NCBI RefSeq assembly: GCF_006965485.1
Contig: NZ_CP041360.1
Span: 3,348,001-3,412,000 of the forward strand
DNA: 64,000 bases
Direction: 5' to 3'
From: Spirosoma sp. KCTC 42546
GTDB taxonomy: Bacteria; Bacteroidota; Bacteroidia; Cytophagales; Spirosomataceae
Positions 13,681 through 57,222 of this stretch are shown here, in pieces. The position numbers and the translations under genes were made by a program. The notes below the pieces were generated by a model. It searched no databases. It saw nothing but the letters and a program-made list of their open reading frames with translations, and was not told where the DNA came from. Each line of letters begins with the position of its first letter. Within the stretch, counting starts at the first letter, position 1.

Positions 13681-13771
13681 AAAAGGAAGGAAAGGGAGAC
13701 AGGAGGAAGGGACGAAGGATTAATCACTTCCCTTTTCCTTTGCTCCCTTTCCTTCCTTTCCTCCCTTTTTT
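13681..13771 (+). repeat. Polypurine/polypyrimidine intergenic hairpin ending in T6-ATG
   Basis: The spacer is nearly all purine in its left half and pyrimidine in its right half. AAGGAAGGAAAGGGAG (13683-13698) has an exact mirror at 13743-13758, and the inner parts (AGGAGGAAGGGAC against CTTCCCTTTTCC) pair imperfectly. A T6 tract (13766-13771) follows and the next ATG begins at 13772. It looks like a terminator fused to a start codon. Confidence 0.75.
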
Positions 13772-14620
13772 ATGAATATCCTGACGTTTGATATTGAAGA
13801 GTGGTTCCATATTCTGGATAATGCCTCAACCCGAACCGAATCGGAATGGGGTCGCTACGAGAGTCGGATTCACCAGAATATGGATCTTATTTTCCAGCTT
13901 TTAGACGAAACGAATAGCCGGGCTACGTTTTTCTGTCTGGGTTGGGTTGCTGATAAACACCCCGATGTAATTCGACGCATTGATGCGGCCGGTTATGAAA
14001 TAGCGACGCACTCGTATGCGCATCAGTTAGCGTATGAGCAGACACCAGCCCAGTTTCAGGACGACCTAGTACGCTCGATTAAGCATTTGCAGGATATTAC
14101 GGGCAAAAAAGTGCGGTCCTATCGGGCACCGGGTTTTTCTATTAAAGAATATAATCGGTGGGTATTCCCGATTCTGGTTGAGCAGGGTATTGAAATCGAC
14201 TGCTCTGTATTTTCGGCCCGACGTGCCCACGGGGGCGATGCGTCGCTGGCGATGTTTGAGCCAGGTTATCTAAACGTTGGAGGAACACTTCTGAAAGAAT
14301 TTCCGATCAATACGGCAGCCGTATTAGGGCAGGACCTGATTTTCTCGGGCGGGGGATACTTTCGATTGTTTCCCTATAGAGTGATCAAGGGATTCATGCG
14401 TCGCTCTCCTTATGTGATGACCTATTTTCACCCGCGTGATTTCGATGCAAAGCAACCGATGATTCCGGGGCTAAGCCGGACACGCCAGTTTAAGTCCTAC
14501 TATGGCCTCCAAAACTGCTGGCCTAAGTTAAAGAACTTACTACTCGAATTCCCATTTGTAGATCTGGCTGAAGCCGACCGACAGGTGGATTGGACTAACG
14601 TAGTGCAGCGATCGGTGTAG
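13772..14620 (+). CDS. Polysaccharide deacetylase (NodB family, DUF3473-like C-terminus)
   Basis: 282 residues. The NodB fold is clear: NILTFDIEEWFH (catalytic D-E metal motif), RATFFCLGWVADKHP, YEIATHSYAHQ (H-S-x-A-H metal ligands) and SYRAPGFS. The C-terminal FSGGGYFRLFPY and TYFHPRDFD match the DUF3473 extension of exopolysaccharide deacetylases. No signal peptide is visible, so it probably acts in the cytoplasm or on a lipid-linked intermediate. It removes N-acetyl groups from amino sugars. ATG 13772 directly follows the T-run of the preceding hairpin. Confidence 0.88.
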   Translation: MNILTFDIEEWFHILDNASTRTESEWGRYESRIHQNMDLIFQLLDETNSRATFFCLGWVADKHPDVIRRIDAAGYEIATHSYAHQLAYEQTPAQFQDDLVRSIKHLQDITGKKVRSYRAPGFSIKEYNRWVFPILVEQGIEIDCSVFSARRAHGGDASLAMFEPGYLNVGGTLLKEFPINTAAVLGQDLIFSGGGYFRLFPYRVIKGFMRRSPYVMTYFHPRDFDAKQPMIPGLSRTRQFKSYYGLQNCWPKLKNLLLEFPFVDLAEADRQVDWTNVVQRSV

Positions 14621-14683
14621 AGAGTATTTAAAGAGGATTAATTCAACTACCAACTACGGTAAAAACTTCACTACGTTAAAAAA

Positions 14684-17609: not shown

Positions 17610-18776
17610 TTAGTTAGTGATTTTAATAAAACCGTCAAGCATCTCCTGGGCAACCACTTCTGGTGCATAAGGGGCAATCAACTGTTTGGCTGCTTTTCCC
17701 ATCTGCTCTGTATCGACGGAGTTGTCCATAAACAGAACCAATTGATGGGTCAGTTGAGCAGGTTGATCTGGATCGAATACAAAGCCATTTTGGCCGTTAC
17801 GGACCAGATCAATAGCGCAGCCACACCGATCTGATACAATAACGGGTAGTCCGCATGCCATTGCCTCGTTAACCACCAGGCCCCAGGGTTCTGAGCGACT
17901 GGGTAAGACGAGTACATTACTAAGGGCCAGCAACTCCGGCACCTTGAACCAGGGGCGCCCTGGCAAATGAATGACTTGCTCGGTTAACCCAAGTGTGTGT
18001 ATTAGCTGGGTCAGGTTGGCTTGTTCAACCCCATCGCCAAGCAGAATGACCCCCCACTTGGCGCCGTTGGCTGATTCTTTGCTCGCTTCGGCAAAGCTAG
18101 TGAGTAGCATCGGTAAGTTCTTGGCCTCAATGAGCCGACCGACAAACACAAAATTATTTGGCCGTACCCCTAGTACCTGCTGTTGTTGAGCGCGAGAAGC
18201 CAATGCACGTTCGAACGTGGAACGAAGGGCCGTATTATCGACGGCGTTTTTGCGAAGTAAAATTTTTGAAGCGGGAACGCCTAGCTGAATCACATAATCG
18301 GCAGCCTGACTACCAAAACAGAAAAAGCCATCGCATTGCCTGAATACCCACCGTTTAACCCGTTCTTTCCAGCCTCCTCGTTGTTGATCAGCAGCTGTAC
18401 TTTCGGTCTGCATAACAACCCGAATGCCATTAGCTTTGGCCCATACTAAGAGTAGCAGCTGCGCGGGGTCATAATACCCAGTCAGATTGATAACATCTGG
18501 CCTATAGGCTCTGGCCTGCCGGAGCAATGCCTGTGTCCGCTCTCGAACACTAATATCTTCCACATATCGGTCGAAGAGCAATTCGTAGTTATACGTGTAC
18601 GTAGGTGGGGCTTCTTCTGGATTTGCTTCCAAACGAGCGCGGGAGCGCTCGTTACGGGCAATTTGTATTACCTGCACCGATATGTCGTTCCGCTGGTTGA
18701 CCAGTTGCTGTAATGCCTGAAATACGCTGGATTTATAGTGTGCCCAGAGTAAATTGTGGACAATAAGGATACGCAT
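17610..18776 (-). CDS. Glycosyltransferase family 4 (GT-B)
   Basis: 388 residues. VHNLLWAHYKSSVFQALQQL at the N-terminus and FVGRLIEAKNLPMLLTSFAE plus SRSEPWGLVVNEAMACGLPV in the C-terminal domain give the standard GT4 fold; EPWGLVVNE is the EX7E motif. The ATG shares one base with the stop codon of the upstream ligase/polymerase gene (TGATG), indicating coupled translation. The acceptor is not predictable. Confidence 0.9.
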   Translation of the reverse strand: MRILIVHNLLWAHYKSSVFQALQQLVNQRNDISVQVIQIARNERSRARLEANPEEAPPTYTYNYELLFDRYVEDISVRERTQALLRQARAYRPDVINLTGYYDPAQLLLLVWAKANGIRVVMQTESTAADQQRGGWKERVKRWVFRQCDGFFCFGSQAADYVIQLGVPASKILLRKNAVDNTALRSTFERALASRAQQQQVLGVRPNNFVFVGRLIEAKNLPMLLTSFAEASKESANGAKWGVILLGDGVEQANLTQLIHTLGLTEQVIHLPGRPWFKVPELLALSNVLVLPSRSEPWGLVVNEAMACGLPVIVSDRCGCAIDLVRNGQNGFVFDPDQPAQLTHQLVLFMDNSVDTEQMGKAAKQLIAPYAPEVVAQEMLDGFIKITN

Positions 18777-20155
18777 CAGGCCGATTCGGGATTTGATACC
18801 ACAATATATTGATCATGGGCGTCGACCGGCGCATTGTCCAGTAAATGGGCCGGGAGCAAGTGTTCGACTCCCATAAATCGAATCATGAGTGCTAATGGGA
18901 ACCAGAATGAAATCTCAAACGGTCTTCCGTTCGTGATCGATTGAATTAGAATCAATAGGAAAAAATAAGCCAGAAAGACGCTCAGCGGATTCGGATTCTG
19001 GCGCATGATTCGTATCGCATAGTATCCTGACATGCCAATGACACCTCCGAACAGGGCTAATCCTAGAATCCCCATATCCGCAAGGGCTTCCATAATGGGC
19101 ACATCCAGGTATAGGAACTTATAGCCGTATCCAAAAATGAGCATCTCGAGGTGGCCCAAGAGTACGTTTCGAAGAAAGGTGGCACTTACAGAACGGTTAG
19201 CGGTCGAGTCATCAAGAGCGGCCTTATAATCAGCTCCCTGTGCTTTCAGACCCAGCAAGGCATACAAGGTTTCTAAATTTCGCTCCGCAAACGAGGTGAC
19301 ATAATCATATAAAACCAGGTAAACGGTCAGGTATCGTTGGAAAAAATAAAGAACCCCGAAAAAACCAACCACCATAATCATGATGGGGATAGGGCTAATC
19401 AAACTACGGGCAGCCGCGCGAATCTGGGCGGGCCGAACATTGAAATACATGAATAAAACCACTGCCAAAATCAGCGCGACGATAGCCGACCGAGTTTGGG
19501 TGAGCACCAGAACCGCAATATTCAGAATACCGGCAAAAAATGAAAGGAGTCGAAATAAGACATGGGTTTTTGGGCGAAGGAGCCAGATGGCGCAGGCAAT
19601 AACACCCATAAACGCGTTCCTGGAAAAAGCATGCGGGTTTCCTGATCCTGGATCACCGTTATTCAGCGTAATGGTTGCTCGTTGCCCAATAGCCCATGTT
19701 GGGTCCGTAATCAGTGAATAAATCAGTCCCAAATTAGATACTAGGGTAAAGAGTACCACTACTGGAATAAACAACGGGATAATATCATTCGGTATATTGA
19801 TAAGCAGGAATAGAAAAATAAGCATGTACGCATAATAGATCATATCCCGGTCATAGTCTATGAAACCTGGTACACCATTATACACAAACATGTACAATAT
19901 ACTAAGCAATAGGAAGGATAATCCCATCCAGAACATAGTCATATTGGGGCGGTAAAGTCGGCGTAAGGCAGTAAATGGAATCATTAATACCAATCCACCG
20001 GCCAGAGCGGCTGCAGTAAACGCGGTGCTACCCGGTGCCAGGCGCATTGTTTCCCGGAAAAAGAAGATTAGTGGGTAGCCATCCACAAGAATACAGATGC
20101 CGACAACCATCCGCATGTAATCGAGGGCTTTCACTAAGCGAATAAAGTTGCTCAT
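18776..20155 (-). CDS. O-antigen ligase/polymerase-like membrane protein (Wzy/WaaL)
   Basis: 459 residues with about eleven membrane helices and a large periplasmic loop (about 290-350). The segment VLTQTRSAIVALILAVV matches the conserved TxSR-like helix of Wzy_C/WaaL proteins. Such proteins polymerise undecaprenyl-linked repeat units or ligate them to an acceptor in the periplasm. No Wzx flippase was found in the window, while an ABC exporter is present, so ligation or a second acceptor is as likely as Wzy polymerisation. One-base overlap with the next GT4 gene. Confidence 0.78.
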   Translation of the reverse strand: MSNFIRLVKALDYMRMVVGICILVDGYPLIFFFRETMRLAPGSTAFTAAALAGGLVLMIPFTALRRLYRPNMTMFWMGLSFLLLSILYMFVYNGVPGFIDYDRDMIYYAYMLIFLFLLINIPNDIIPLFIPVVVLFTLVSNLGLIYSLITDPTWAIGQRATITLNNGDPGSGNPHAFSRNAFMGVIACAIWLLRPKTHVLFRLLSFFAGILNIAVLVLTQTRSAIVALILAVVLFMYFNVRPAQIRAAARSLISPIPIMIMVVGFFGVLYFFQRYLTVYLVLYDYVTSFAERNLETLYALLGLKAQGADYKAALDDSTANRSVSATFLRNVLLGHLEMLIFGYGYKFLYLDVPIMEALADMGILGLALFGGVIGMSGYYAIRIMRQNPNPLSVFLAYFFLLILIQSITNGRPFEISFWFPLALMIRFMGVEHLLPAHLLDNAPVDAHDQYIVVSNPESA

Positions 20156-20263
20156 AAACAGGTATTAGTTTAGAGTTTGACGTTTGTCGTTTGATGTTAG
20201 TTGCTATACAGTTGCTTTCGTGCCAGCTAACATCGAACAACAAACTATAAACTTAGACCCTTG
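20156..20263. repeat. Intergenic imperfect hairpin (GTTTGA words)
   Basis: Left arm 20168-20200 is built from GTTTAGA, GTTTGAC, GTTTGTC and GTTTGAT words. The right arm (20227-20258) carries the mirrored CTAACATC, GAACAA, CAAAC and AAACTTAGAC words and pairs along most of the length with a few mismatches. Position and size match the other spacer hairpins. Confidence 0.6.
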
Positions 20264-21163
20264 CTACTTTCTTGACCGATTCAGGTTCAGTCGGTGACGA
20301 ACGTACCCGAACTCACCTTTGAGAGCAAAAGTCAATAATTTACGCACGCGACAATAACGTTGCCAGAATGATGGACCCATTGATGACGTTAGCATGGGCA
20401 GGTATTTTTCTTTCACCAGCTTATGTTCCTGTATGCCTACGGTAGCGGCAATAGTTGACGATTTAGCATCAGGCTGTACCCGAAAACCACCCCAGAAGCC
20501 ATCGACGTGCCGGAATTGTATGCCTGGCTGAACGCCTAGCCGGGCCACAATTTCGTAGTCGATCACGAAACGTAGCGTTTCATCAAGCAAACCAAACTCG
20601 CTCAGTCGGTCGCGCCGGATAAACAATGACTGATTAAACACCTGCATGCCTTCGTAAAGCTGACATTCCACACAAAATTCGGGTGCCCGCATTTCTTCCA
20701 GAATAACGTCGTCTTCGTCGGTGATGTACATATCACCAAAAAAAACATCAGTTGTGGGTGCTTTCTGCCAGGCTGTAGCCACGCGGCTAAATGCATCCGG
20801 CGCAAACACATCATCAGAATTCTGAAACGCAACATAATCGCCCGTGGCCCGGCGAAACCCTTTATTGATGGCATCTGTCTGGCCCCGGTCTTTTTCGCTC
20901 ACCCAGCCAGCCAGATACGGCTCGTATTTTTTGATGATCTCAAGACTCCCATCCGTTGATCCACCATCCATAATGAAATACTCCAGATTAGGATAGTGTT
21001 GGTTTAGAACGCTTAAAATTGTCCGTTCGAGATACTGGGCCTGATTGAACGACGGGGTAACAACCGTTAGCTTCGGGTAAGCTTTTGGGTCAGCCGCAAG
21101 ATTTGTTTGCGGTCTATACGGTAGATTTACAAATGAATGGAGCGAGTTGTTCGTAGGCTTCAT
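20264..21163 (-). CDS. Glycosyltransferase family 2
   Basis: 299 residues from ATG 21163; an upstream ATG at 21220 would overlap the preceding gene by 50 bases and adds no family sequence. LTVVTPSFNQAQYLERTILS, YFIMDGGSTDGSLEIIKKYE, GWVSEKDRGQTDAINKGFRR and AFQNSDDVF give the GT-A core with the DD metal site. This subgroup often follows a GT4 gene in surface-polysaccharide loci. It starts 7 bases after the upstream GT4 stop. Confidence 0.9.
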   Translation of the reverse strand: MKPTNNSLHSFVNLPYRPQTNLAADPKAYPKLTVVTPSFNQAQYLERTILSVLNQHYPNLEYFIMDGGSTDGSLEIIKKYEPYLAGWVSEKDRGQTDAINKGFRRATGDYVAFQNSDDVFAPDAFSRVATAWQKAPTTDVFFGDMYITDEDDVILEEMRAPEFCVECQLYEGMQVFNQSLFIRRDRLSEFGLLDETLRFVIDYEIVARLGVQPGIQFRHVDGFWGGFRVQPDAKSSTIAATVGIQEHKLVKEKYLPMLTSSMGPSFWQRYCRVRKLLTFALKGEFGYVRHRLNLNRSRK

Positions 21164-21170
21164 ACTGTCG

Positions 21171-22280
21171 TTAGCGCAGAGATTGGTAAACCTCCAGCGT
21201 TTGCTGAGCAGTTTTGTCACATGAAAAATGAAGAAGTCGCTCGGTGCCTTTCCGACGCAGATCGGCGCAGAGAGCGTCGTCGGTTACCACGCGCTCAATG
21301 GCAGCTGCCATCGAATCATCGTCTTCAGGATCAAAATAAATGGCAGCATCGGCTCCAACTTCGGGTAATGAACTCCGATCGCTCAACACAACCGGGCAAT
21401 TGCTACTGTAGGCTTCCAGAACAGGAATCCCGAATCCTTCATTCAGCGATGGAAAGACAAATGCACGTGCGTGTTGATACATCGTTACCAGGCCAGCGTC
21501 TGTCAGGGGACGATAATGGATTCGCTCATTGAGCCGAGCGGCATGGAACAACGCTTGTTCTTCAGCGGTAAACGAACCTCCTCCTGCACAAATGATGTGC
21601 AAATCTGTATGCCGATGTAAGACGGGCTGAATGGCTCTAAAGAAACCGCTGAAGTTTTTATAAAGCCCTCGTTTACCAACATACAATAAATAGGGTACCG
21701 CTAAGGGAGACTCCTGCGGCTTGGTCTGGGCTACGTACTCATTGAAGGTGGAACCAAGTAGAACAACCTTTATTTTATCCGGCTCAATCGGGAAGTAACG
21801 AAGCAAATCCTGTTTTGAGAACTCTGAAATACAGATGACACAGTCGGCCCGGCGCAGGAGTTGCTTTTTCGTTTCATAGATCCCTTCGCCCAATTCAGGA
21901 TATTGTTCACCGTATCGCTCGCTGGTAGCATCGAAAAACGTAAGGACAAATGGTTTTTTGCCGATATCCTTCAAAAAATAGCGATGGTAATACGTTGGAT
22001 GAAAAATATCGAATTTACCCGCCCGAACCCGCTGCAGGCTGCTCAGACGATTTAAGACAGACGCTACCCGGTGGGCATTTCGCAGGTGGGCAAAGCGTGG
22101 GTAACGCAGATGATTGCTCAGTGATGCCTGATTCAGGTATTCATTATTCGAGAATCGCAACGATAGTTCAAATTCAATATCTGACCGTTTGGAAAACGAG
22201 CGCATCAGGTCAAAAAAATAGCGGGAAACACCCCCATAAGGCAGGCCCGTAAACGATTGATGGTCGAAGAGTACTTTCAT
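21171..22280 (-). CDS. Glycosyltransferase family 4 (GT-B)
   Basis: 369 residues from MKVLFDHQSFTGLPYGGVSR (ATG 22280); the frame runs 19 codons further upstream without family sequence. LPYGGVSRYFFDL is the acceptor loop, LYVGKRGLYKNFSGFFRAIQ starts the donor domain, and SLNEGFGIPVLEAYSSNCPV carries the EX7E motif. Similar enzymes transfer mannose or related sugars. Preceded by a 115-bp spacer with a promoter box. Confidence 0.9.
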   Translation of the reverse strand: MKVLFDHQSFTGLPYGGVSRYFFDLMRSFSKRSDIEFELSLRFSNNEYLNQASLSNHLRYPRFAHLRNAHRVASVLNRLSSLQRVRAGKFDIFHPTYYHRYFLKDIGKKPFVLTFFDATSERYGEQYPELGEGIYETKKQLLRRADCVICISEFSKQDLLRYFPIEPDKIKVVLLGSTFNEYVAQTKPQESPLAVPYLLYVGKRGLYKNFSGFFRAIQPVLHRHTDLHIICAGGGSFTAEEQALFHAARLNERIHYRPLTDAGLVTMYQHARAFVFPSLNEGFGIPVLEAYSSNCPVVLSDRSSLPEVGADAAIYFDPEDDDSMAAAIERVVTDDALCADLRRKGTERLLHFSCDKTAQQTLEVYQSLR

Positions 22281-22334
22281 GAAAGGAAAACCTACAAACC
22301 AATCGATTTGTATTTTTCTGAGAAAATTGACTGG

Positions 22335-22342
22335 CAAAAATA
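22335..22342 (-). promoter_or_regulatory. -7 promoter box (TATTTTTG) for the 21171-22280 gene
   Basis: On the minus strand TATTTTTGCC matches TAnnTTTG, 54 bases upstream of the ATG. No -33 TTTG is apparent. It could start a sub-operon of the polysaccharide locus. Confidence 0.4.
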
Positions 22343-22395
22343 GGGCTATTTGCCGATAAATCCTTAACCAGGATTGATTATTCGGTCAGTATTCC

Positions 22396-23424
22396 TTACT
22401 TGATGACAGGGACGTATACTCGATCAAGAAAACGGGTAATGGTTCGCATCGACTTAATCGTAGCATATTGCCAGCCCCGTACCACTGGCGGCTCAGGTTG
22501 CTGCCCGTATGCAGGATTACTCGTCTCAACGAGTAATGACTGAGCTGTAACTGATTGACGATAGGCACTTAATAAACTTACAATTTCGGGCCGACTTGAG
22601 AGACGGACCCGATTCTGATGCGGGAAAAAACCTTCGTCTGGATTGAATAAACCCTTGAAATTAACAAAAACCAAGGGCTCATTCTGGCCTGTAGGGCCAC
22701 TGGCTTTCCAGGTATTGGCTTTCGAGTGGATGGTTCGTTCCGATAGATTCCAAAGGGCGACATGCCAGCCTGGGTTTTTGACAATGGTTACTCCCCGAAA
22801 CATGACCGGTACATGCATTAGCCAGAGTTGATCCAGACACAGCCCCTCACAAAAGTTAATAAAAGCTCGTTCCCGCACCCGATTATCCCACCAGGCCAGG
22901 AACCGATCCGTTTCGGCTGAGCGCCTAAATGCCAGGAAATCGGAACAGTACAGGCCAATATTCTGAAAAAATTTTTCATCAGGCCACGATTTATCCTGTA
23001 AGCCAGTTGTTGGATTTCTCGTAATAAAGGGTGTCAGCAAGATAGTCGATTTGGCCAGTAACGCCCAGATTGGGGTAGGAGAACTCAAAAAGCAGCTATT
23101 CGGATCGGCGTATATGAGCTGGTTTGTATCGGGATACCGCCGAAATGCTTCGGCAATAAATAACGGCTTACAGGCAGCTGCAAACTCGGTTGGCGTATAC
23201 ATAGCCGACAACTGCGCTAGCTGCTCAGCAGGTACTACTTCACCAATTGGAAGTAGCGGATAGGGCGACACAAAGCCAGTAGGCAGTTGGGCCGGATCAT
23301 CTACTAAACCAATTAATACCGGTTCCGATTGGCCGGTAGTCGTGAATAGATTGATACTCGCACCCAGTGCAAGAGCCTGGGGTAATTGACGGATTGTACA
23401 GATTGTTAGTAGCACAGTGGGCAC
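22396..23424 (-). CDS. GT-A-fold glycosyltransferase-like protein with altered DxD
   Basis: 342 residues from GTG 23424. It is a full-length paralogue of the 26314-27360 protein: LLTICTIRQLPQALALGASI against AFTICSINYLAQARTLGDSL, CKPLFIAEAFRRYPDTNQLIY, CEGLCLDQLWLMHVPVMF and GWHVALWNLSERT. The paralogue has YFDPDI at the metal site; here it reads YADPNS, so the second Asp of the DxD-like motif is Asn. The protein may use another donor, work without metal, or be inactive. Role in polysaccharide sugar transfer comes from context. Confidence 0.68.
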   Translation of the reverse strand: MPTVLLTICTIRQLPQALALGASINLFTTTGQSEPVLIGLVDDPAQLPTGFVSPYPLLPIGEVVPAEQLAQLSAMYTPTEFAAACKPLFIAEAFRRYPDTNQLIYADPNSCFLSSPTPIWALLAKSTILLTPFITRNPTTGLQDKSWPDEKFFQNIGLYCSDFLAFRRSAETDRFLAWWDNRVRERAFINFCEGLCLDQLWLMHVPVMFRGVTIVKNPGWHVALWNLSERTIHSKANTWKASGPTGQNEPLVFVNFKGLFNPDEGFFPHQNRVRLSSRPEIVSLLSAYRQSVTAQSLLVETSNPAYGQQPEPPVVRGWQYATIKSMRTITRFLDRVYVPVIK

Positions 23425-23433
23425 AAAACTACA

Positions 23434-24456
23434 TTATTCAAATATATCGCCCAAAACGGCTAGTAAAGGGGCATACCAGTTGGCTGCGGCATCCGCATAG
23501 CGTCGATAATTACCCCGTAATAAATTAGAAAGTACGGGAGAGATTCGTTTCAGTCGATTATGGGGCAAATTACTGCGCATGCTGAAATGATCCAACCGCC
23601 GGTAGAGTTGGGGTAGACCTGGCGAATTTGCCGGAACACGTTTACTTAACAATTCACTAATTGTGCTTAATTGAACCCGTTTTTTGAGGAGTGGAGCTAG
23701 TTTCCTGGCCCTATGCCTCGTCAAACGATCCCGAAGTCTTATTCGATCGCCCACTTCCTGTTGTCGAACACCTACCTGCTGTTGAACGTGAGTACGGTAG
23801 AGTTGGAGAGGCTTATCAATAAAATGGATGGCATTCTGCGTAGCAGCTACCATGGCAATCCAACCATCGTAAATATACCCTGGTATTTTATCTGGAATGG
23901 GCAACAAGGTGGGTAGAAAGGCTCTACGGATTACCGTGGCACAGCCCATCATCCGGTTTCCGTCGAGCAGAACGTCCATGGTTTCGCCAGCTTTCCAACG
24001 CTTCTGGGTTTCTTTATCGAAGCGAACAGCTTCCCAGAATCGGTTCTGGCGCCCCTCCAGATTTTCATCAGTTACCCAGGCATCACAAAACGCAATCTGA
24101 ATTTCGGGATGTTGAACCATATACTGGACCATGGTGCTGATTTTTTCCGGTAACCAAAAATCATCCTGGTCGCAGATAAAGATCAGATCACCCGTACACG
24201 CTGCTAAGGCTCGTTCAAAGTTTTTATTATACCCTAAACGCGTTTGATTTTCCAGAATACGTACGAGAAAAGGGGCTGTAGCGGCTAACGTTTCCAGTAA
24301 GCTGCCCGTACCATCTGTTGATCGGTCGTCAGAAATAACCACTTCATCCGGTAACCGTTCTTGTCCTAGCAAACTGTTCCATTGCGTAGTGAGATAGGCC
24401 ATGCCATTGTAGGTACAGAGGGCAATGGAGACTGTTGGTTGCACTGATGTAGTCAT
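23434..24456 (-). CDS. Glycosyltransferase family 2
   Basis: 340 residues from ATG 24456, which overlaps the upstream stop codon by 4 bases (ATGA); a longer frame to 24525 is not supported. VSIALCTYNGMAYLTTQWNS, VISDDRSTDGTGSLLETLAA, LGYNKNFERALAACTGDLIF and CDQDDFW (metal site) are textbook GT2, close to the rhamnosyltransferase-like group. Third of a chain of tightly coupled genes (26311 to 23434). Confidence 0.9.
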   Translation of the reverse strand: MTTSVQPTVSIALCTYNGMAYLTTQWNSLLGQERLPDEVVISDDRSTDGTGSLLETLAATAPFLVRILENQTRLGYNKNFERALAACTGDLIFICDQDDFWLPEKISTMVQYMVQHPEIQIAFCDAWVTDENLEGRQNRFWEAVRFDKETQKRWKAGETMDVLLDGNRMMGCATVIRRAFLPTLLPIPDKIPGYIYDGWIAMVAATQNAIHFIDKPLQLYRTHVQQQVGVRQQEVGDRIRLRDRLTRHRARKLAPLLKKRVQLSTISELLSKRVPANSPGLPQLYRRLDHFSMRSNLPHNRLKRISPVLSNLLRGNYRRYADAAANWYAPLLAVLGDIFE

Positions 24457-25280
24457 ATTTGGTAACCATATTGGGCAAAAATCGGACGCCAGTACTCTGT
24501 TCCATGAATGTTCCAGGCATGACAACCAAAAGGTAACTGACCTTGATTATAATGTTCAACGGCCCATTTTGGATAAAACTCAATCGCAAAATAGAGGGCT
24601 TTCCTATACGTAGGAATACGTAATCGCGGCCAGTAGCGATTTACTTCGATACCCCAAAAAACGTCTTCATGATATTGGTGCAGAGCAATACGTTCGTATT
24701 CAGCAATTTTTTCCCTGAAAGGTTCAAGGCAACGCAACATGGCTGAAACACGCCGAAGGGAAAAACCACCGCAACCGACGCCATTCAGATTGATGATCTC
24801 GCGGGGGGTGATGCCGTCCGGTTTTTTAAGGTTAACCCAGGTGGCTACCCTTTGTTTAATGCTAAACCAAAGTTTATCGCCAAAACCGGTAAAGTCACGG
24901 TCGCGCAACCAGGGGGCGCCAATGTAGTCGTAATTTTGCTGACACCAGTACGCCAGGTCATCCTGAAAGACAAAGGCATCTAATTGGTAAATCAGCATGT
25001 ATTCCTGATCGGCAAATGCTTCGTAAAATTCAGCCGACATCATGAGTCGGTTATAACCTTGAACGTCGGCAAAGTAGCTATCGTCAAATGTTCGTGCCTG
25101 CAACGTTGGACCTAGTTCGCGATAGGCTGAAATGTCAAGCGAATGAGGGGTAGCTAACCAGATTGGGTAATTTCCCAGTATGCGTAAGCATTGGGTCAGG
25201 GCTATACGTTCGTAATCGGTAAGCTGTTGTTTATAAACGGGTAAAACAATGTTTACACTAACAGTAGTAGACGACTTCAT
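24453..25280 (-). CDS. DUF5672-like protein
   Basis: 275 residues from ATG 25280, again overlapping the upstream stop by 4 bases. Family-like segments are VNIVLPVYKQQLTDYERIAL, FDDSYFADVQGYNRLMMSAE, YMLIYQLDAFVFQDDL, YDYIGAPWLR, GVGCGGFSLRRVSAML, HEDVFWG and PFGCHAWN. The QLDAFVF segment sits where GT-A enzymes have a DxD, and HEDVFWG resembles an ED-type catalytic site. DUF5672 members occur in glycan loci and are thought to be glycosyltransferases; activity here is inferred. Confidence 0.8.
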   Translation of the reverse strand: MKSSTTVSVNIVLPVYKQQLTDYERIALTQCLRILGNYPIWLATPHSLDISAYRELGPTLQARTFDDSYFADVQGYNRLMMSAEFYEAFADQEYMLIYQLDAFVFQDDLAYWCQQNYDYIGAPWLRDRDFTGFGDKLWFSIKQRVATWVNLKKPDGITPREIINLNGVGCGGFSLRRVSAMLRCLEPFREKIAEYERIALHQYHEDVFWGIEVNRYWPRLRIPTYRKALYFAIEFYPKWAVEHYNQGQLPFGCHAWNIHGTEYWRPIFAQYGYQI

Positions 25281-26311: not shown

Positions 26312-26313
26312 AC

Positions 26314-27360: not shown

Positions 27361-27406
27361 AAATCAATCGGGGAGTTGGTTAGTAATTCAGTTATACAAC
27401 ACTGAT

Positions 27407-28507: not shown

Positions 28508-28513
28508 TGGTAT

Positions 28514-29716: not shown

Positions 29717-29821
29717 TCGTAGTCATTCTTTGTCATGCCTAGTCATTCAACCGTTTGTGGTGACAAAGAACAACTGCCTGAGCAGCCACGCAATGACAAT
29801 GGATGACTAAAGATGACAAAT
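29717..29821. repeat. Intergenic hairpin with 10-bp periodic arms (GTCAT words)
   Basis: From 29711 four consecutive 10-mers read GGTCATTCGT, AGTCATTCTT, TGTCATGCCT and AGTCATTCAA. The right arm (29792-29817) carries the mirrored AATGAC, GGATGAC and AGATGAC words. An inner stem pairs TTCTTTGTCA with TGACAAAGAA. One of the clearest periodic arms in the window. Confidence 0.7.
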
Positions 29822-30475: not shown

Positions 30476-30572
30476 GTTTTGATAAGGAGTGAGGAGTGAG
30501 GAGCGAGGAGTGAGGAGTTACTGACATGTCTATATGTCTACACTCCTCGCTCCTCACTCCTCACTCCTAATA
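30476..30572. repeat. Intergenic hairpin with 27-bp perfect arms (GGAGTGA units)
   Basis: Left arm 30485-30511 consists of 7-bp units GGAGTGA, GGAGTGA, GGAGCGA and so on, and its exact reverse complement occupies 30542-30568. The single variant unit (C for T) is matched by G for A in the other arm, so the stem is unbroken across 27 bp. Loop about 30 nt. Confidence 0.85.
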
Positions 30573-31286: not shown

Positions 31287-31373
31287 TGTGTTTACGATTT
31301 ACGATTTACAATTTACGATGTGCGGACTACAGAAAATCGTACCGCCCGGGCAACCCCGATCGTAAAGCATAAA
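31287..31373. repeat. Intergenic TTTACGA array with partial inverted partner
   Basis: Four 7-bp units (TTTACGA, TTTACGA, TTTACAA, TTTACGA) fill 31291-31318. A shorter mirrored word (ATCGTAAA, near 31359) lies in the right half, so the hairpin is less complete than others. The same ATTTACGA word recurs in the spacers at 35.9 and 49.1 kb. Confidence 0.6.
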
Positions 31374-33431: not shown

Positions 33432-33447
33432 AATAAACAATATACCG

Positions 33448-34551: not shown

Positions 34552-34636
34552 TAGATTAGTTATCGGAGAATAGCTATCAGTCGATAGGAATGAGTCGTCA
34601 GTTACCAACTATAGACTGGTAGCTGATACCGGTTTG
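34552..34636. repeat. Intergenic imperfect hairpin (TATCAG/CTGATA words)
   Basis: GAATAGC and TATCAG near 34568-34580 are mirrored by CTGATA and GCTATTC near 34623-34642; CAGTTACCA pairs with TGGTAGCTG closer to the loop with one mismatch. The right end overlaps the stop region of the ABC ATPase gene. Confidence 0.5.
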
Positions 34637-35890: not shown

Positions 35891-35970
35891 AATGATTTAC
35901 GATGTGTGAGTTACGAGTTACGAATTAACCAGTACTAAAATCGTACATCGTAACTCGAAATTCGTAATTC
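35891..35970. repeat. Intergenic imperfect hairpin (TTACGA words)
   Basis: CGAGTTACGA (35914-35923) is the exact mirror of TCGTAACTCG (35948-35957), and GATTTACGA (35894-35902) pairs with TCGTAATTC (35962-35970) with one mismatch. The vocabulary is shared with the spacer at 31.3 kb. Confidence 0.62.
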
Positions 35971-40802: not shown

Positions 40803-40823
40803 TTTATTAGTTTACAACTCTCT

Positions 40824-42722: not shown

Positions 42723-42832
42723 AAAATTTAGTGAGTCAGTAAGTCGGTAAGTCGGTAAGTGGTAAGTTTGTGAGTCGGCATGATGTAGTGTACTGCCCGA
42801 CTGACTGACTTATTGACTTACCGGCTTTTTTA
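42723..42832 (+). repeat. Intergenic hairpin with 8-bp GTCGGTAA units ending in T6-A-ATG
   Basis: Left arm units GTCAGTAA, GTCGGTAA, GTCGGTAA and GTGGTAA (42735-42765) are mirrored by CTTACCGGC and related GACTTA/GACTGA words at 42797-42825. A T6 tract (42826-42831) follows and the ATG of the next gene begins at 42833. It resembles a terminator for parE built onto the next start codon. Confidence 0.72.
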
Positions 42833-43906: not shown

Positions 43907-44006
43907 TCGTTTAATTCAGATAATACCGTACGGGCAGTTGGTTACTACTGATAAAAATGTTGGATAAACGTAATAACTTTTTTTGACGGATTTGGCTTAT
44001 AAAGGT

Positions 44007-44699: not shown

Positions 44700-44710
44700 T
44701 TTGGTTATAG

Positions 44711-44764
44711 GTTATTGAGTTACTGGTTATTCTAAAAGCTATGTATAACCAGTAACTCAATAAC
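44711..44764. terminator. Bidirectional terminator-like hairpin with 20-bp perfect arms
   Basis: GTTATTGAGTTACTGGTTAT (44711-44730) is the exact mirror of 44745-44764, with a 14-nt loop. The left arm sits in a run of GGTTAT-like words. It lies between convergent stop codons and overlaps the last base of the GDPD stop. No long U-tract, but the position fits termination on both strands. Also counted in the spacer-hairpin family. Confidence 0.75.
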
Positions 44765-45792: not shown

Positions 45793-45818
45793 AAAACGTT
45801 GTTCTGGGAACAGATGAT

Positions 45819-46388: not shown

Positions 46389-46467
46389 GGACTTAGGTAA
46401 TAGGTAATTTGGGGTACAAGGATAGTACGCTATAAGTTGGCCTAAAGGCTATTGCAAATTGTATAAA

Positions 46468-47409
46468 TTAAATAGGAGTGGTCACTAGTTCTAACGCCCC
46501 AACTGGTACGGCATCTTCGCCGAGTTTGGCTAGCAGGACAATTGGTGGTGGCTGAAATGATTTCATGACAAAGCGGGGTAAAGCCTGCCGGATTGCTGCG
46601 CGTAAAGGCTCTCCAATGAGTGAAATTCCACCGCCTAATACGATGGCATCGGGGTGGAATAGATGGACCACATGGGAGAGTCCCAGGGCAGCTACCGAGC
46701 CAATTTGCTCAATTAGCATGCGCGCAACGGGATCACTCGCTTCGTAGGCAGGGTGCAAAAAACGAGCTTCTTTGCCAACAGACCCATTAGCATGAGCTTG
46801 CTGGACGGCTAGTTTCAGCGCCGAATCATCGGGCAGTTGCGGGAGTAAGTCGCGAATCTGCTGATCAACAGCCCAGCCGGATATTGTTTGCTCAACTGTT
46901 TGCCCAGGTGTTGAATCGCCGGGTGGTACAAGCCAAAGATGACCAATTTCAGCTTCGCCAGGTAAGGCCCCGTGGTAGAGTTGGTTATCTACGATCATGC
47001 CACCACCAACGCCACTACCCAGAGTAACGTAAAACACCCGTTTAAAGCCAGTTGCAACACCTCGCCGAGCTTCTCCAAGAGCCGCAACGTTGGCATCATT
47101 CTCAATTCGTACGGTAGCTCCTGGTATTTGCTCCTGAAGCCAATTGGCCAACTCAAAGCCTGCCCATCCCGCAATTTGGTGTGACGTAGCAATCTGCCCG
47201 GTCTGCCAATTAACCGGTCCACCAAAGCCAACGCCAATTGATTGAGGGGGCTCCGGGAGTTGCCGAATCGTCGTTGCAATTTGAGAAAGAATACCGTCTG
47301 CGCCCTGAGATGGGTCAATCATAAAACGAAATCGCTGCGTAATCTGGCCGGTTATATCACCCGTAACCAATTGCAATTTCGTTCCGCCAATTTCAATACC
47401 AAGATTCAT
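46468..47409 (-). CDS. ROK-family sugar kinase
   Basis: 313 residues from MNLGIEIGGTKLQLVTGD (ATG 47409). ROK landmarks: GVGFGGPVNWQTGQI, IENDANVAALGEA (catalytic Asp), YVTLGSGVGGGMIVDNQL, PGEAEIGHLWLV and IVLGGGI. The usual zinc site CxCGxxGC after GEIGH is missing; here the segment reads PPGDSTPGQTVEQTISGWAV. It likely phosphorylates a hexose or amino sugar. A -7 box stands only 4 bases upstream of the ATG. Confidence 0.85.
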   Translation of the reverse strand: MNLGIEIGGTKLQLVTGDITGQITQRFRFMIDPSQGADGILSQIATTIRQLPEPPQSIGVGFGGPVNWQTGQIATSHQIAGWAGFELANWLQEQIPGATVRIENDANVAALGEARRGVATGFKRVFYVTLGSGVGGGMIVDNQLYHGALPGEAEIGHLWLVPPGDSTPGQTVEQTISGWAVDQQIRDLLPQLPDDSALKLAVQQAHANGSVGKEARFLHPAYEASDPVARMLIEQIGSVAALGLSHVVHLFHPDAIVLGGGISLIGEPLRAAIRQALPRFVMKSFQPPPIVLLAKLGEDAVPVGALELVTTPI

Positions 47410-47413
47410 GCGG

Positions 47414-47421
47414 CAAAGATA
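47414..47421 (-). promoter_or_regulatory. -7 promoter box (TATCTTTG) directly upstream of the ROK kinase ATG
   Basis: The minus strand reads TATCTTTGCCGC-ATG. The box matches TAnnTTTG fully and ends four bases before the start codon, so the transcript would be leaderless or nearly so. It abuts the hairpin arm beginning at 47422. Confidence 0.5.
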
Positions 47422-47491
47422 GTTTGTTGTTTCAGGTTTCAATCGGGCCGCTGGTGCATTTATGAACTACCTGAAATCTGAAACAACAAAC
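47422..47491. repeat. Intergenic hairpin, 20-bp arms with one mismatch
   Basis: GTTTGTTGTTTCAGGTTTCA (47422-47441) pairs with 47472-47491, one G/A difference. It lies between a minus-strand gene of unknown function (ending upstream on the right) and the ROK kinase promoter box on the left. Confidence 0.72.
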
Positions 47492-47505
47492 GTCTACCTT
47501 ATTGA

Positions 47506-49116
47506 TCAGCCCTTTTTCATCGTAGTCCGGCCCAGGTAGATTTCGTCGCCTTTAAGCGAAATAGTCGTGTAAAAACTGTAGCCATTTTGCACATAACGCA
47601 TCATGACCTGGTTCGTTTGGCCTGATCGGGCGTAGGCTTTTGTAGCGGCTACCAGAATCTGATCGCCATTGACAATAGCCCTAACGAAAGGTACGTTGTG
47701 GGTTTTAATCTGATTCGCGTTGTATTTGTACCAGGTTTGGCCACCATCATAGGAACACTCCGTCGCTTCGTTTAGGTAGGTCTCTTTGCCATTGAAAAGG
47801 TCGCCGTGGTGCTTAAATAAACGCCATAGGCCGTGAACATAATGCTCATAGCAAGCGTAGTTCCGGTCGTTGCCAAGGCCTTTCTGGTTTGGATCAGCAG
47901 GAGAGGGTAGGTCGGGAGTTAGGTCAATCTGATCGTCCCAGAATAACACCCCGTAGGCCCCCGTAAACCAGTAAAAAATGCCCATACCCTCGGCCACGGC
48001 GGGGGGGGCAGCATGCTCTGCTTTGGCACTGTTCGGATGATCGCTCTGGGTATTGAACAGCCATTGCCAGGCAATACGTTTCTTTGGCGATAGTTTCATG
48101 TTGACTTCCTGTTCACCTAGCAACGCGGCTAACCAGTGCCGGTCGCCATCGCCCGTATGATTGGTAGAATAGTCGAAATCAGGATATACATAGTACGTAC
48201 CAGGCATCTGAAAATCGGCATAATCACCAAAGGATTTACCCAGAATGTCATCGGGCATACCCCGTTGGCGACTGGTGGCTGTATGTTTGGCAGGGGTAGT
48301 CCAGAGCCACTCGGGCGCGGCTTTATAGTCTTCGGCCCGAGAATAGCCTACGCTGTTATGGAGTACGGGCGCAATGGAGCCAACCAATGTTTGCGCACTG
48401 GAATTCTCCTTGATCGTTTTGATCATGTACGTATACAAATTTGCCTGTTCCTGACGGTTGGCTACACTGGCTCCATCATTTTCAATGTCCAGATAAATCA
48501 GGCCAAACGTACTTTTCCAGTCTGTTTCCGGGCAGTCGCCAAAGCTCAGGCACCCCCCTCTTAACTCCGAAGAGGCCTGGAACAGGGTATTACGATTAAC
48601 TCGGGCTGACGCATCGGCACGGTTCGGAATAGCCCGATATAAAGTCTCACTGGCTTTCTCACTATTCTGCGCCCAGGCAAGCCCAAAAGCGTCCCGAAAG
48701 TGATTCTGGTAAACTATCCAGGCTCGCTGGCTTTGTTTGAGGGAGCTTTTCCAGCCTTTACCCGGTAAACCATCCTTCCAGATTTCAATGTTCGGAACCA
48801 TCCGGCTCTGATCCACGGACGAAAAGCCGCGTCGGAAAATTTTCGTTCGATCCTGTTGCACATGCAGGTTACGCCCAGCTCCGCAGAATGTCAGGATTTT
48901 GGTAGCAGGCAATGTAAAATCATCCACAACGTCGAGGCTGTAAAAGCCTTTTCTGGTGCTGGGCGTGAACCGGGCACGTGGTGTAGCTGCCAGCGACGTT
49001 TGCGGAGGAACAGTTCCCTGCAGTTTTATGGCAACCGGTTCAGGCAAAGTCGTACGCGAAGACCAGTAGCCAGCACCCGCCAAACCAGCCGTTATGCCTA
49101 AAATGAGTAACTTCAT
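47506..49116 (-). CDS. Large exported protein of unknown function
   Basis: 536 residues from MKLLILGITAGLAGAGYWSS (ATG 49116), with a membrane anchor or signal segment in the first 20 residues. The body has many aromatic residues and acidic clusters (LIYLDIENDGASVANRQEQA, FQMPGTYYVYPDFDYSTNHT, KRIAWQWLFNTQSDH, GMGIFYWFTGAYGVLFWDDQ). The spacing of D/E-containing strand-like segments suggests a TIM-barrel glycoside-hydrolase-like fold, but I see no signature of a named family. A G8 tract lies at 48001-48008. Assignment beyond exported protein is speculative. Confidence 0.6.
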   Translation of the reverse strand: MKLLILGITAGLAGAGYWSSRTTLPEPVAIKLQGTVPPQTSLAATPRARFTPSTRKGFYSLDVVDDFTLPATKILTFCGAGRNLHVQQDRTKIFRRGFSSVDQSRMVPNIEIWKDGLPGKGWKSSLKQSQRAWIVYQNHFRDAFGLAWAQNSEKASETLYRAIPNRADASARVNRNTLFQASSELRGGCLSFGDCPETDWKSTFGLIYLDIENDGASVANRQEQANLYTYMIKTIKENSSAQTLVGSIAPVLHNSVGYSRAEDYKAAPEWLWTTPAKHTATSRQRGMPDDILGKSFGDYADFQMPGTYYVYPDFDYSTNHTGDGDRHWLAALLGEQEVNMKLSPKKRIAWQWLFNTQSDHPNSAKAEHAAPPAVAEGMGIFYWFTGAYGVLFWDDQIDLTPDLPSPADPNQKGLGNDRNYACYEHYVHGLWRLFKHHGDLFNGKETYLNEATECSYDGGQTWYKYNANQIKTHNVPFVRAIVNGDQILVAATKAYARSGQTNQVMMRYVQNGYSFYTTISLKGDEIYLGRTTMKKG

Positions 49117-49198
49117 AGTGGATTTCAAGGAAGTATTGATTTACGAGAAGAGCACCCTGTTGACTGACGCACGAAGGAAATCGTAATTCGAAAATCAA
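49117..49198. repeat. Intergenic imperfect hairpin (ATTTACGA / TCGTAATTCG words)
   Basis: ATTGATTTACGA (around 49136-49147) pairs with the mirrored region near 49187-49198 (10 of 12). The right half also holds ATCGTAATTCG, the same vocabulary as the 31.3 and 35.9 kb spacers. Confidence 0.48.
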
Positions 49199-52769: not shown

Positions 52770-52886
52770 TTGGTTAACTTTTGTGAAATGAGTGGAGTTG
52801 GTGGAGTTAGTGAAATGAGTGGAGCAGCTTGGTCATGACCATTTACTGACTCCACCTACTTAACTGACTTTACTCATTATACCACC
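52770..52886. repeat. Intergenic imperfect hairpin (GTGGAG words)
   Basis: GTGAAATGAGTGGAG occurs twice (52783-52797 and 52810-52824). AGTTGGTGGAGTTAG (52796-52810) pairs with CTGACTCCACCTACT (52846-52860) at 13 of 15 positions, and ACTCATT and CCTCAT words in the right half mirror the ATGAG words on the left. Confidence 0.65.
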
Positions 52887-55604: not shown

Positions 55605-55713
55605 AGATAGTTGATACGTGCAGTACGTGCAGTAGGTGGAATAAGGTAACTAAGTGCAGTAAATAAACGACACTCAATTAACGTACTCCACCTACTGCAC
55701 GTACTCCACTAGT
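55605..55713. repeat. Intergenic hairpin with 19-bp perfect arms (ACGTGCAGT units)
   Basis: The 9-bp unit ACGTGCAGT occurs twice in tandem (55616-55633). AGTACGTGCAGTAGGTGGA (55622-55640) is exactly mirrored at 55687-55705. The loop of 46 nt holds further GTGCAGTA and ACGTAC-like words. Confidence 0.78.
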
Positions 55714-57105
55714 TTACTTTCCCCACATTGCGTTAGCTGTTTCGGGGAAAGGCATGGTTACTTCGGGTACATTGGCCGCTACTCGGTTTGCCCATTCAAC
55801 ACCCTGCATGAGCGAGTGGTCCTGATTACTGACCTCGTATTTCCAGGCACCAAAACGACCTCTTGAGTAGATGCCAAACGGCTCCAACTGAGGCAGAACG
55901 GCTTTCAGAATGCCATCCCGCTCTACCGAGGGGGTTGGATAACCGTAATCGAATGCCATGTGGAACGTTGAGATCACATCGTCGGCCGATTCAATCAGCT
56001 TATCTTCGATCAGGGCACGAATCGTGTCATCAATCAGCGTTTCCCGGTTAACAGGTTTGGCCGATGACTCGCTCGTTTCGGTCATTAACGACCAGTTCTG
56101 CGTGATATCTGGTACGTTGTTAGGGCTATAGTTCGAGAACACCGTTACGCGATAGTAGGGGCTGTTGTATTCTGGAAAATACATCCAGCACATGGTTTTC
56201 AGGCTCTCTTTTGGTTTGCCTTTCAGCCCGATTCCCACCACGTTGGTTGATGAATGCTTGAGCCCTTGCGCCGTCTGTACGGTTTCGGAGGAGAGGCCTT
56301 CCACCCGTTGCGTGAACAAATCGAGGGGCATGGTGCTCAACAAATTCTCGTACTGAATTTCTTCACCATCGGCCAGCACGATTTTTTTCTCTGACCCGAT
56401 TACCTTTTCGACGGTAGCATTCAGCTTTACATACTCGCGGCCAACGAGGTCACCAACGGCTTCCCAGATACCACCTGTACCGCCCTGCTTCGGAAATTTA
56501 AAGGTGCTATTGGGCCCCCAGGAAAAATCGTCCTGATCGAAAATGATATTCTTGGTAACCCGCTGTAAATCCGTGACGGCCACTCGTTCTCCCACCCAAA
56601 CAGCATTCATATCTTCGGGGGGATAGGCCCACACTTTGAAGTTGTATGGGAACATGAACGTTTCGGCTAGCCCTGGCCCGAACGTAGCCAGAATCCACTC
56701 CCGAAAGTTTGCGGGCTTCTGGTTGGTTGGGAATTTATAATTGTGGATAATGCCTTCCAGGCACTTCCACATCGTTTCAGGGGTCAGGTACTTTATATTG
56801 TTCTGAAACGGATAGGGTACAAAGCGATTTTCGATCCAGACCCACGATTCACGTTGGTGACTAAGCCATCCATCTTCGCCCAATGCTTTTAACATCAGGT
56901 CGTCGAAGTATTTATAGTGCGAAAATTGAACATGACCACCAACGTCCCAGGTGAATCCTTTTTCGTCCACAAAACTTTTAGACAGACCTCCAATGCGATT
57001 TTCTTTCTCTAAAACAATAAAGTCGGTAATACCTAACTCTTTCAGACGATAAGCGGCTCCCAGACCTGTTGGGCCAGAGCCAATAATTACATACTTATAC
57101 TTCAT
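55714..57105 (-). CDS. FAD-dependent amine-oxidase-like oxidoreductase
   Basis: 463 residues. YVIIGSGPTGLGAAYRLKEL is the dinucleotide-binding motif, followed by FIVLEKENRIGGLSKSF and DVGGHVQFSHYKYFDDLM. NLLSTMPLDLFTQR and FGIYSRGRFGAWKYEVSNQD near the end resemble protoporphyrinogen-oxidase and UDP-galactopyranose-mutase-like proteins of sugar loci. It probably oxidises or rearranges a nucleotide sugar. The gene lies in line with the DPM1-like GT2 gene. Confidence 0.82.
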   Translation of the reverse strand: MKYKYVIIGSGPTGLGAAYRLKELGITDFIVLEKENRIGGLSKSFVDEKGFTWDVGGHVQFSHYKYFDDLMLKALGEDGWLSHQRESWVWIENRFVPYPFQNNIKYLTPETMWKCLEGIIHNYKFPTNQKPANFREWILATFGPGLAETFMFPYNFKVWAYPPEDMNAVWVGERVAVTDLQRVTKNIIFDQDDFSWGPNSTFKFPKQGGTGGIWEAVGDLVGREYVKLNATVEKVIGSEKKIVLADGEEIQYENLLSTMPLDLFTQRVEGLSSETVQTAQGLKHSSTNVVGIGLKGKPKESLKTMCWMYFPEYNSPYYRVTVFSNYSPNNVPDITQNWSLMTETSESSAKPVNRETLIDDTIRALIEDKLIESADDVISTFHMAFDYGYPTPSVERDGILKAVLPQLEPFGIYSRGRFGAWKYEVSNQDHSLMQGVEWANRVAANVPEVTMPFPETANAMWGK

Positions 57106-57222
57106 AAGTTGGAATCAGATGTATGATATAGGATGTAAGATGTATAGTGTATAATAGATGATCCAACCTATATGTTTAATTAGTTGACATCATACACCAT
57201 ACACGCTATATCCTACACCAAT
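57106..57222. repeat. Intergenic imperfect hairpin (GTATGATATAGGATG words)
   Basis: Left half holds GATGTATGATATAGGATG, AAGATGTATAGTGTATAA and similar words; the right half holds CATCATACACCATACACGC and TATATCCTACACC, which pair with the left with gaps and mismatches (core AGGAT and GTGTAT words conserved). Unit length is not constant. Confidence 0.6.

Follow-up and report, generated by a model that had tools for sequence, protein, structure and literature searches.

Word-built hairpins recur at gene ends across the genome of Spirosoma sp. KCTC 42546

The stretch of DNA analysed here (the window; 64,000 nucleotides, positions 3348001-3412000 of contig NZ_CP041360.1) lies in the 8.66-Mb, single-contig genome of Spirosoma sp. 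KCTC 42546, and many of its intergenic gaps hold hairpins whose mirrored arms are often built of short, near-tandem words. Twenty proteins of the window were scanned against Pfam. Those encoded around 18776-36810 (coordinates at the locus are window positions) were mostly polysaccharide or transport enzymes, and the rest were housekeeping or unassigned. The nearest named relatives of the gyrase-B-type topoisomerase subunit were those of Spirosoma terrae (92%) and S. oryzae (90%). In the window, ARAGORN found no tRNA and Rfam gave no match. A consensus scan of 28000-47900 was uninformative, with 28 terminator-like sites versus 20.1 ± 5.6 and 24 promoter-like sites versus 30.1 ± 5.0. Genes were called with a home-made codon-model finder that mis-calls some starts, and distances to gene starts are therefore only approximate.

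The sequence-only reading of this DNA had listed 14 gaps as holding two arms that are reverse complements of each other. Such arms were visible in the listed gaps, and folding and the best imperfect inverted repeat were each compared with 200 dinucleotide-preserving shuffles, folding against shuffled sequence being the check which that reading had proposed. Twelve of the 14 spacers exceeded the shuffles (inverted repeat p ≤ 0.005, folding p ≤ 0.01), one was borderline and one was not supported. In what follows z refers to folding, the repeat was reached by 0/200 shuffles unless a p-value is given, and cluster sizes refer to the arm families described below. Hairpin 13682..13759 (arms 13682-13712 and 13729-13759; z -4.2) used the GGAGGAAAGG vocabulary (cluster of 8), 20168..20258 (arms 20168-20203 and 20224-20258; z -4.9) the GTTTGNN vocabulary with period 7 (cluster of 21), and 29722..29817 (arms 29722-29747 and 29792-29817; z -3.2) the GTCATT vocabulary with period 10 (cluster of 11). 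The lowest z, -11.0, belonged to hairpin 30482..30571 (arms 30482-30514 and 30538-30571), which was made of GGAGTGA words with period 7. The gap at 31287 held the borderline case, a weak hairpin at 31291..31373 (arms 31291-31305 and 31359-31373) of TTTACGA words with period 7 (inverted repeat p 0.025, folding p 0.06), and hairpin 34570..34627 (arms 34570-34587 and 34609-34627; inverted repeat p 0.005, z -3.5) had no clear period (match 0.36). TTACGA words with period 7 formed hairpin 35894..35970 (arms 35894-35926 and 35938-35970; z -5.1), which lies 3 bp from the start of an ABC ATPase gene (34637-35890) and is flanked on its other side by an ABC-2 permease gene (called at 35971-36729; both by Pfam). 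Hairpin 42731..42821, after the gyrase-B-type topoisomerase gene (arms 42731-42760 and 42792-42821; z -5.7), was built of AAGTCGGT words with period 8; hairpin 44712..44763, in a convergent gap (arms 44712-44734 and 44740-44763; z -6.5), had a weak period (0.43); and hairpin 47417..47495 (arms 47417-47441 and 47472-47495; z -4.9) was built of GTTTCAGGTTTCA words. The listed gap at 49117 (49136..49198) showed no significant repeat (p 0.115) or folding (p 0.925, z +1.4) against its 200 shuffles. The GTGNAGTNN vocabulary with period 9 (cluster of 13) supplied both hairpin 52771..52884 (arms 52771-52820 and 52838-52884; z -5.1) and hairpin 55615..55711 (arms 55615-55656 and 55671-55711; z -7.7). 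Hairpin 57120..57217 (arms 57120-57159 and 57179-57217; inverted repeat p 0.005, z -2.5) was made of GATGTATGATATAGG words with period 7 (cluster of 3). Among 16 other window gaps of 40-300 bp, compared with 60 shuffles, no repeat z rose above 2.7 (the top one at 5623), and those at 51297 (z -3.5) and 22281 (z -2.3) folded better than shuffled sequence, by folding alone.

The hairpin pattern is real, abundant and genome-wide. Two samples of the genome were read: 40 evenly spaced 20-kb stretches (800 kb), and 464 kb that included the window. The pattern held across the 40 stretches and thus was not confined to the window, a question that the sequence-only reading had raised. In the 40 stretches and the window, gaps of 60-200 bp held a strong repeat (score of at least 15 and higher than in 15 shuffles) in 89/202 codirectional, 29/49 convergent and 5/32 divergent cases, as against 0/283 coding segments (codirectional plus convergent versus divergent, Fisher p 0.0006). 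The gaps of 30-300 bp in the 40 stretches held 141 hairpins with a score of at least 15, which extrapolates to about 1,500 per genome. When stop codons were taken as anchors (score of at least 15 within 130 nt, all kinds of hairpin included, so that a convergent pair may count twice), a hairpin was present at 118/366 genes in 464 kb of contiguous DNA of this genome and at 0/330 mid-gene controls. The corresponding counts in two congeners (the congeners are labelled G003, G008 and so on, and this genome G000 or OWN) were 105/330 in G008 (control 1/292) and 77/348 in G032 (control 1/291). Gaps under about 60 bp had been said to lack hairpins. This was true of codirectional gaps of 30-60 bp (5% of 43 above shuffles) and not of convergent ones (70% of 10), some of which held ordinary GC-rich terminators with short loops.

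The arms were long (median 35 nt in 226 hairpins with a score of at least 15) and the loops short (median 11 nt). The proposal that arms consist of a repeated unit of 7-10 bp was borne out for part of them: 66/207 arms of at least 20 nt had a best-lag match of at least 0.6, with periods 7, 8, 9, 10 and 12 in 38, 6, 12, 9 and 1 arms, respectively, against 0.8-1.5 for each in shuffles (period 7: 1.1). In 47% of the 207 arms, the match was reached by at most 1 of 20 shuffles. The 5' arm had more G than C in 169/226 hairpins, whichever strand was read, so that the arms lean towards a three-letter alphabet. A tip of GCTGACGC / GCGTCAGC stood near the loop in only 14/226 hairpins of this genome and was also seen in the spacer of locus L003, in G008, G027 and others, and in a Larkinella hairpin made of different words; the tip motif GCTGRCGC occurred 24 times in 31.5 kb of hairpin gaps versus 52 times in 745 kb of coding sequence, about 11-fold more per base.

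The sequence-only reading had held that the units differ by locus, and this proved wrong for most hairpins. Clustering of the 5' arms placed 143/226 hairpins in 16 recurring families of at least three, and 473 pairs of 5' arms scored at least 16, versus 2 with shuffled arms. The families included GTTTGNN (21 hairpins), CACAGAG (18), AATGNAT (16), GTGNAGTNN (13), GTTTACG (12) and GTCATT (11), and smaller ones such as GGAGGAAAGG (8), ACAGGATT (6), CGCAAAG (5) and GATTTACGA (4). Two of the 16 families, the GGTTTCTCAAAACC and CATTCCGACG types (12 hairpins), look like ordinary repetitive extragenic palindromes (REPs), and 131 hairpins remain without them. A hand-made vocabulary list, drawn mainly from this genome, was compared with the hairpin gaps of contiguous regions and matched 50/91 of them here, 26/82 in G008, 27/56 in G032, 3/12 in G010 and 4/15 in G027. 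Whole-genome pattern counts, which include overlapping matches, differed between congeners. The CACAGAG pattern had 62 matches here, 19 in G032, 11 in G006, 5 in G016 and 0-2 in the other 32 congeners; it had zero matches in 102 same-family genomes of other genera, and in a phylum sample it matched 1/148 genomes, this one, and none of the 147 others. AATG words were counted 82 times here, 63 in G032, 24 in G008, 16 in G022 and 0-5 in other congeners, and GTGNAGTNN 55 times here with matches in 2/110 other genomes of the family. This genome also holds two uninterrupted arrays of AATGAAT heptamers of more than 130 bp each (3284725-3284896 and 3924556-3924692 of the contig). In the phylum search, GTTTG words matched in 10/148 genomes, including GTTTGAGG-type arrays; its backward control was uninformative, since these arrays are also matched by the reversed pattern. 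Word-like hairpins of other words were seen by eye at loci of Larkinella, Pedobacter, Sphingobacterium, Niastella and Mucilaginibacter, which suggests that the architecture extends beyond the genus. The 80 loci surveyed for this gave 68 hairpins (score of at least 15) in 394 non-divergent gaps and 6 in 89 divergent gaps.

The sequence-only reading had concluded that the hairpins do not derive from one mobile element, and no single such element was found; nevertheless, a limited dictionary recurs at many loci. For a 74-bp GTTTG hairpin, whose arms are identical, the best other full-length match in this genome was 83% (40 of the 70 first-look candidates scored), and 97 word-sharing matches were listed on both strands, itself included. 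In G007, a 138-bp spacer with a hairpin of GGGCAGAGG words stands between genes that are separated by 3 bp in both G010 and G027 (gene identity 86-87%). Its best other long match in G007 was 72% over 123 bp among 49 matches in all, shorter matches reached 94% over 32 bp, and seven other genomes searched gave no match with E below 0.01. If the G008-aligned start is the true one, two genes that abut in G008 are separated in this genome by about 90 bp, which hold a CGCAAAG hairpin. No obvious target-site duplication was seen by eye in the two clean pairs of filled and empty sites. Since two hairpins searched genome-wide had no near-identical full-length copy, simple copy-paste is disfavoured. Loops were unrelated even between hairpins of one family with similar arms (loop score 3.02 versus 3.04 for shuffled loops in 52 comparisons, of which 28 were CACAGAG and 8 from a REP-like family, both orientations counted).

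These data bear on the possibility that the hairpins are REPIN-like non-autonomous mobile DNA, copied into gene ends by a transposase (a REP-associated tyrosine transposase, RAYT, or another) and then diverging fast. Like REPs and REPINs, they are multi-copy extragenic palindromes, and vocabulary bursts biased by species, sites filled in one genome and of 0-3 bp in others, the location at 3' ends with scarcity in divergent gaps, and the close likeness of CACAGAG arms would all suit such an element. The spacers of REPINs are reported to be less conserved than the repeats, with compensatory changes common (PMC3116915). The genome has five Y1_Tnp genes; however, in loci of about 3.3 kb each, read by eye, no word family adjoined any of them, and their flanks carried other, mostly GC-rich palindromes, with only one ACAGGATT hairpin, about 1 kb from a Y1 gene. 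Mobilisation of the word families by RAYT was accordingly left unsupported by these flanks. REP/RAYT-type families seem to coexist here beside the Y1 genes: one locus (L232, Y1 gene 1396-1932) has a long GC-rich GGTTTCTCAAAACC-type palindrome on one side, as in a RAYT-like unit, and another (L233, Y1 gene 1285-1827) has a GGCTTCGCCGAG inverted repeat on both sides, like a REP/RAYT unit. A 2018 survey describes a mostly Bacteroidetes subclass of TnpA-REP flanked by atypical structures (PMC6006769). The word hairpins also differ from REPs and REPINs in having near-tandem words, mostly no fixed consensus, loops unrelated between loci despite matching arms and, in the two cases searched, no near-identical full-length copy, yet CACAGAG arms reach 97%. 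Taken together, we consider a REPIN-like element unlikely.

Ten congeners had 74-81% gene identity and largely kept synteny with the window region. As the sequence-only reading had proposed, homologous spacers were compared in these relatives, and hairpins recurred in place, often with unrelated words, or were absent. The gap at 30476 held GGAGTGA words here, AATGAGTG in G008, AAAGAGTG in G032 and AATGATG in G003, and no repeat above 9.5 in G007, G010, G016 or G027. The gap at 29717 held GTCATT words here and in G003 and G032, GATTTACGA in G008, and GTTTATGG/GTATTC words in G018, and the gap at 44700 held an unrelated GACCCCGATGGGGTC hairpin in G003 and G008. The junction of the 31287 gap measured 3 bp in G008, 11 bp in G018 and -4 bp in G003. 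At the junction orthologous to 31286 in G007, G010 and G027, the upstream frame, in its called form, takes its stop codon from the word array, which extends into the 3' end of that frame. Unlike most other spacers, the one at 40576-40823, in the divergent gap preceding the topoisomerase gene, was recognisably conserved over the ten congeners.

Orthologous junctions of this genome, G008 and G032 were scored with 70-bp extensions that allow for mis-called starts (coding background 10/250). Of the 146 codirectional junctions, 90 had no hairpin, 31 had one in a single species, 12 had the same words, 10 had unrelated words and 3 were unclear; the three-species pairs are not independent, some same-word cases depend on conserved coding flanks that the extended arms take in, and some one-species cases are repeats inside coding sequence. 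Convergent junctions (13) gave 0 same, 6 unrelated, 1 unclear, 3 in one species only and 3 none, and divergent junctions (15) gave 2 same, 3 in one species only and 10 none. In the closer pair G010 and G027 (92.6% nucleotide identity), 70 codirectional junctions gave 6 same, 3 in one species only and 61 none, and 8 convergent junctions gave 3 same, 1 unclear, 1 unrelated and 3 none. An earlier count ranked 34 orthologous hairpin pairs against random pairs; 11 ranked below 0.1, 9 at 0.1-0.5 and 14 at 0.5 or above. Given the same-word, unrelated and low-rank pairs, some loci keep their vocabulary while rewriting it and others are replaced. Several hairpins of G010 and G027 were unchanged, mismatches included, and a few were wholly different, which suggests change by blocks. 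Many homologous spacers carried no hairpin, a finding that the sequence-only reading had counted against its proposal; it is an argument against an essential function and not against the structures.

Slippage that acts on every gap independently, without any spread from one locus to another and with recurring words owed to mutation bias, would account for the lack of near-identical copies of the two hairpins searched genome-wide, and for the 11/34 orthologous pairs that keep the vocabulary of their locus with the words re-shuffled. However, vocabularies recur at many unrelated loci, as the arm pairs show, and congeners differ sharply in them, as for CACAGAG, so that we regard this explanation as improbable.

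The stems lie close to stop codons. In 154 hairpins of codirectional gaps, the stem started a median of 5 nt past the stop codon. When only codirectional gaps no longer than 130 bp were counted (84 gaps), the stem lay at most 15 nt from the stop in 80 and at most 15 nt from the following called start in 58. The 98 codirectional hairpins that belong to word families began a median of 3.5 nt past the stop, 89 of them within 15 nt. This position agrees with the suggestion that the structures are maintained as terminators or 3'-end protectors, and with a wider function in RNA, in which hairpins block 3' exonucleases, terminate transcription or delay ribosomes at the stop codon while their word content drifts. 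In E. coli, REPs at most 15 nt from a stop codon are reported to stall ribosomes (PMC12306157), and this is the distance seen here. Strong folding z values, the recurrence of hairpin positions across species, and T-runs beside 25-27% of stems, slightly above the 18% of random gap spots (95/516), point the same way. However, T-runs showed no sense excess (sense 39/154 versus opposite 42/154; 25 versus 36 in the 98 word-family hairpins), and a hairpin was present in one species only at 31 of the 146 codirectional orthologous junctions. In gaps of at most 130 bp, a median of 11.5 nt separated the end of the stem from the called start that follows, so that a promoter would have little room. Three junctions read closely had at most 11 bp in a relative in place of the hairpin spacer, which also weighs against a role as terminator or protector.

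Selection on pairing in the sense RNA predicts that sense G-U mismatches exceed antisense-only ones. No such bias was observed in 265 codirectional hairpins of five species (242 sense versus 246 antisense, p 0.89) or in the 98 word-family hairpins of this genome (85 versus 86). Convergent gaps gave 85 versus 78; the 29 hairpins of divergent gaps, where sense is undefined, gave 49 versus 30 (p 0.04), which was taken as chance. With this result against it as well, maintenance for a function in RNA appears quite unlikely to be the main explanation.

Ordinary intrinsic (Rho-independent) terminators, over-read in the sequence-only reading, share with these hairpins the place past the stop codon. 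Some convergent gaps do hold short GC-rich hairpins with short loops, and inverted repeats after stops are reported to be general in bacteria (PMC13155455). In contrast to such terminators, the word hairpins have no sense-biased T-runs, and their stems are long (the arm median of 35 nt), word-built (word periods in about one-third of arms) and often fill codirectional gaps. At an equal threshold, a hairpin was found at 5/51 stops in a 50-kb piece of E. coli K-12, versus 32% of stops in this genome. That the pattern reduces to ordinary terminators is therefore highly improbable.

Arm mismatches without a sense wobble bias suggest that the pairing was made at the level of DNA. Comparison of G010 with G027 revealed loop inversions at two clear loci, one in a word-built and one in a plain hairpin, and loop inversion together with mirrored arms is described as the footprint of polymerase template switching (PMC8604942, PMC8794818). 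Because of the missing wobble bias and the two inversions, a DNA-level origin of the mirrored arms is favoured; effects in RNA of stems so near to stops remain compatible with it.

Our best reading, which we hold tentatively, is that the hairpins are palindromes made by template switching and tolerated at gene ends. A replicating strand would switch template and copy a word array back on itself, giving a palindrome in the DNA whose second arm is copied from the first and whose loop consists of local sequence. Slippage, and switches between similar words at other places in the genome, would alter the word arrays themselves, so that each hairpin would become a fresh sentence written in the common vocabulary. 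Gain and loss would involve whole blocks, for which the space from a stop codon to the following start or stop would be the main tolerated place; any influence on mRNA ends or on translation would be a side effect, sometimes perhaps a useful one. The sequence-only reading had proposed local slippage plus template switching. The two loop inversions, the unbiased mismatches and the unrelated loops support that in part, and the spread of vocabularies is left unexplained by it. Arms within a species matched better (mean 0.84) than orthologous arms (0.58) in 42/43 pairs with a between-species identity below 0.85, although these hairpins were picked by arm pairing, which inflates identity within arms. 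In the AATG family, identity was 0.82 within hairpins and 0.77 between them, a small margin.

Several observations weigh against template switching as the source of the hairpins. A vocabulary of many copies needs a spreading step, and template switching at one locus supplies none. The hairpin spacers look like insertions where relatives have 0-3 bp, and no word-array precursor was seen there. Candidate single-arm precursors were withdrawn, since 8/9 were gene-call artefacts in which a full repeat (score of at least 15) extended into a gene whose end or start had been mis-called; the remaining candidate, of GGAAGG words in G007, had a score of 10. The missing wobble bias would fit neutral decay of inserted elements equally well. 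The inversion scan flagged 12/213 partly non-independent comparisons, of which only the two were judged clear and one of these has no words. CACAGAG arms, up to 97% identical between loci, are closer to a copied element. Finally, G010 and G027 share arm mismatches (at the AAGTC locus, identity was 0.98 between species and 0.82 within), so that arms are not continually homogenised, and gradual arm conversion as the sole process was rejected on this ground.

Short degenerate repeats of related design occur elsewhere. The short tandemly repeated repetitive (STRR) sequences of cyanobacteria consist of degenerate 7-bp near-tandem words, and in the tRNA-Leu intron of Nostoc degenerate heptanucleotides pair as a hairpin. 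The intergenic DNA of this genome resembles the STRR type in its degenerate near-tandem heptamers (period 7 in 38/207 arms versus 1.1 in shuffles). The TAACTGA heptamers of Beggiatoaceae form arrays also in five Bacteroidetes (PMC4679880), but these, as described there, are direct repeats of one word, lying mostly just upstream of starts in marine Beggiatoaceae, whereas the word hairpins have several vocabularies, mirrored arms and a place at gene 3' ends. Quasipalindromes attributed to template switching share the mirrored arms and the loop inversion; the cases described in those reports are single stems (PMC8794818, PMC8604942), whereas the word hairpins form a population that spans the genome and draws on shared vocabularies of tandem words.

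In the literature searched, no named family with this rule was found. The word hairpins lack at least one defining feature of intrinsic terminators, the sense T-tract, and one of REPINs, the cognate RAYT (flanks read by eye). We would place them, with reserve, among the extragenic palindromes, as a variant whose most likely origin is template switching. Although we think it rather unlikely, a DNA-writing process of Spirosoma might instead insert mirrored word arrays at gene ends, in a species-specific vocabulary and not as copies of an element, probably in much of the Bacteroidota; if so, it would be a form of genome dynamics apart from transposition and simple-repeat slippage, and if a dedicated enzyme writes the hairpins, they would be a new kind of mobile DNA. 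About one-third of the genes examined in 464 kb carry a hairpin near the stop, and about half of the gap hairpins match the listed vocabularies. If template switching makes the arms, pairs of related genomes would offer natural events in which the birth, inversion and loss of palindromes can be measured. Sites that keep a hairpin while its content changes are a warning against judging 3' structures by sequence conservation alone.

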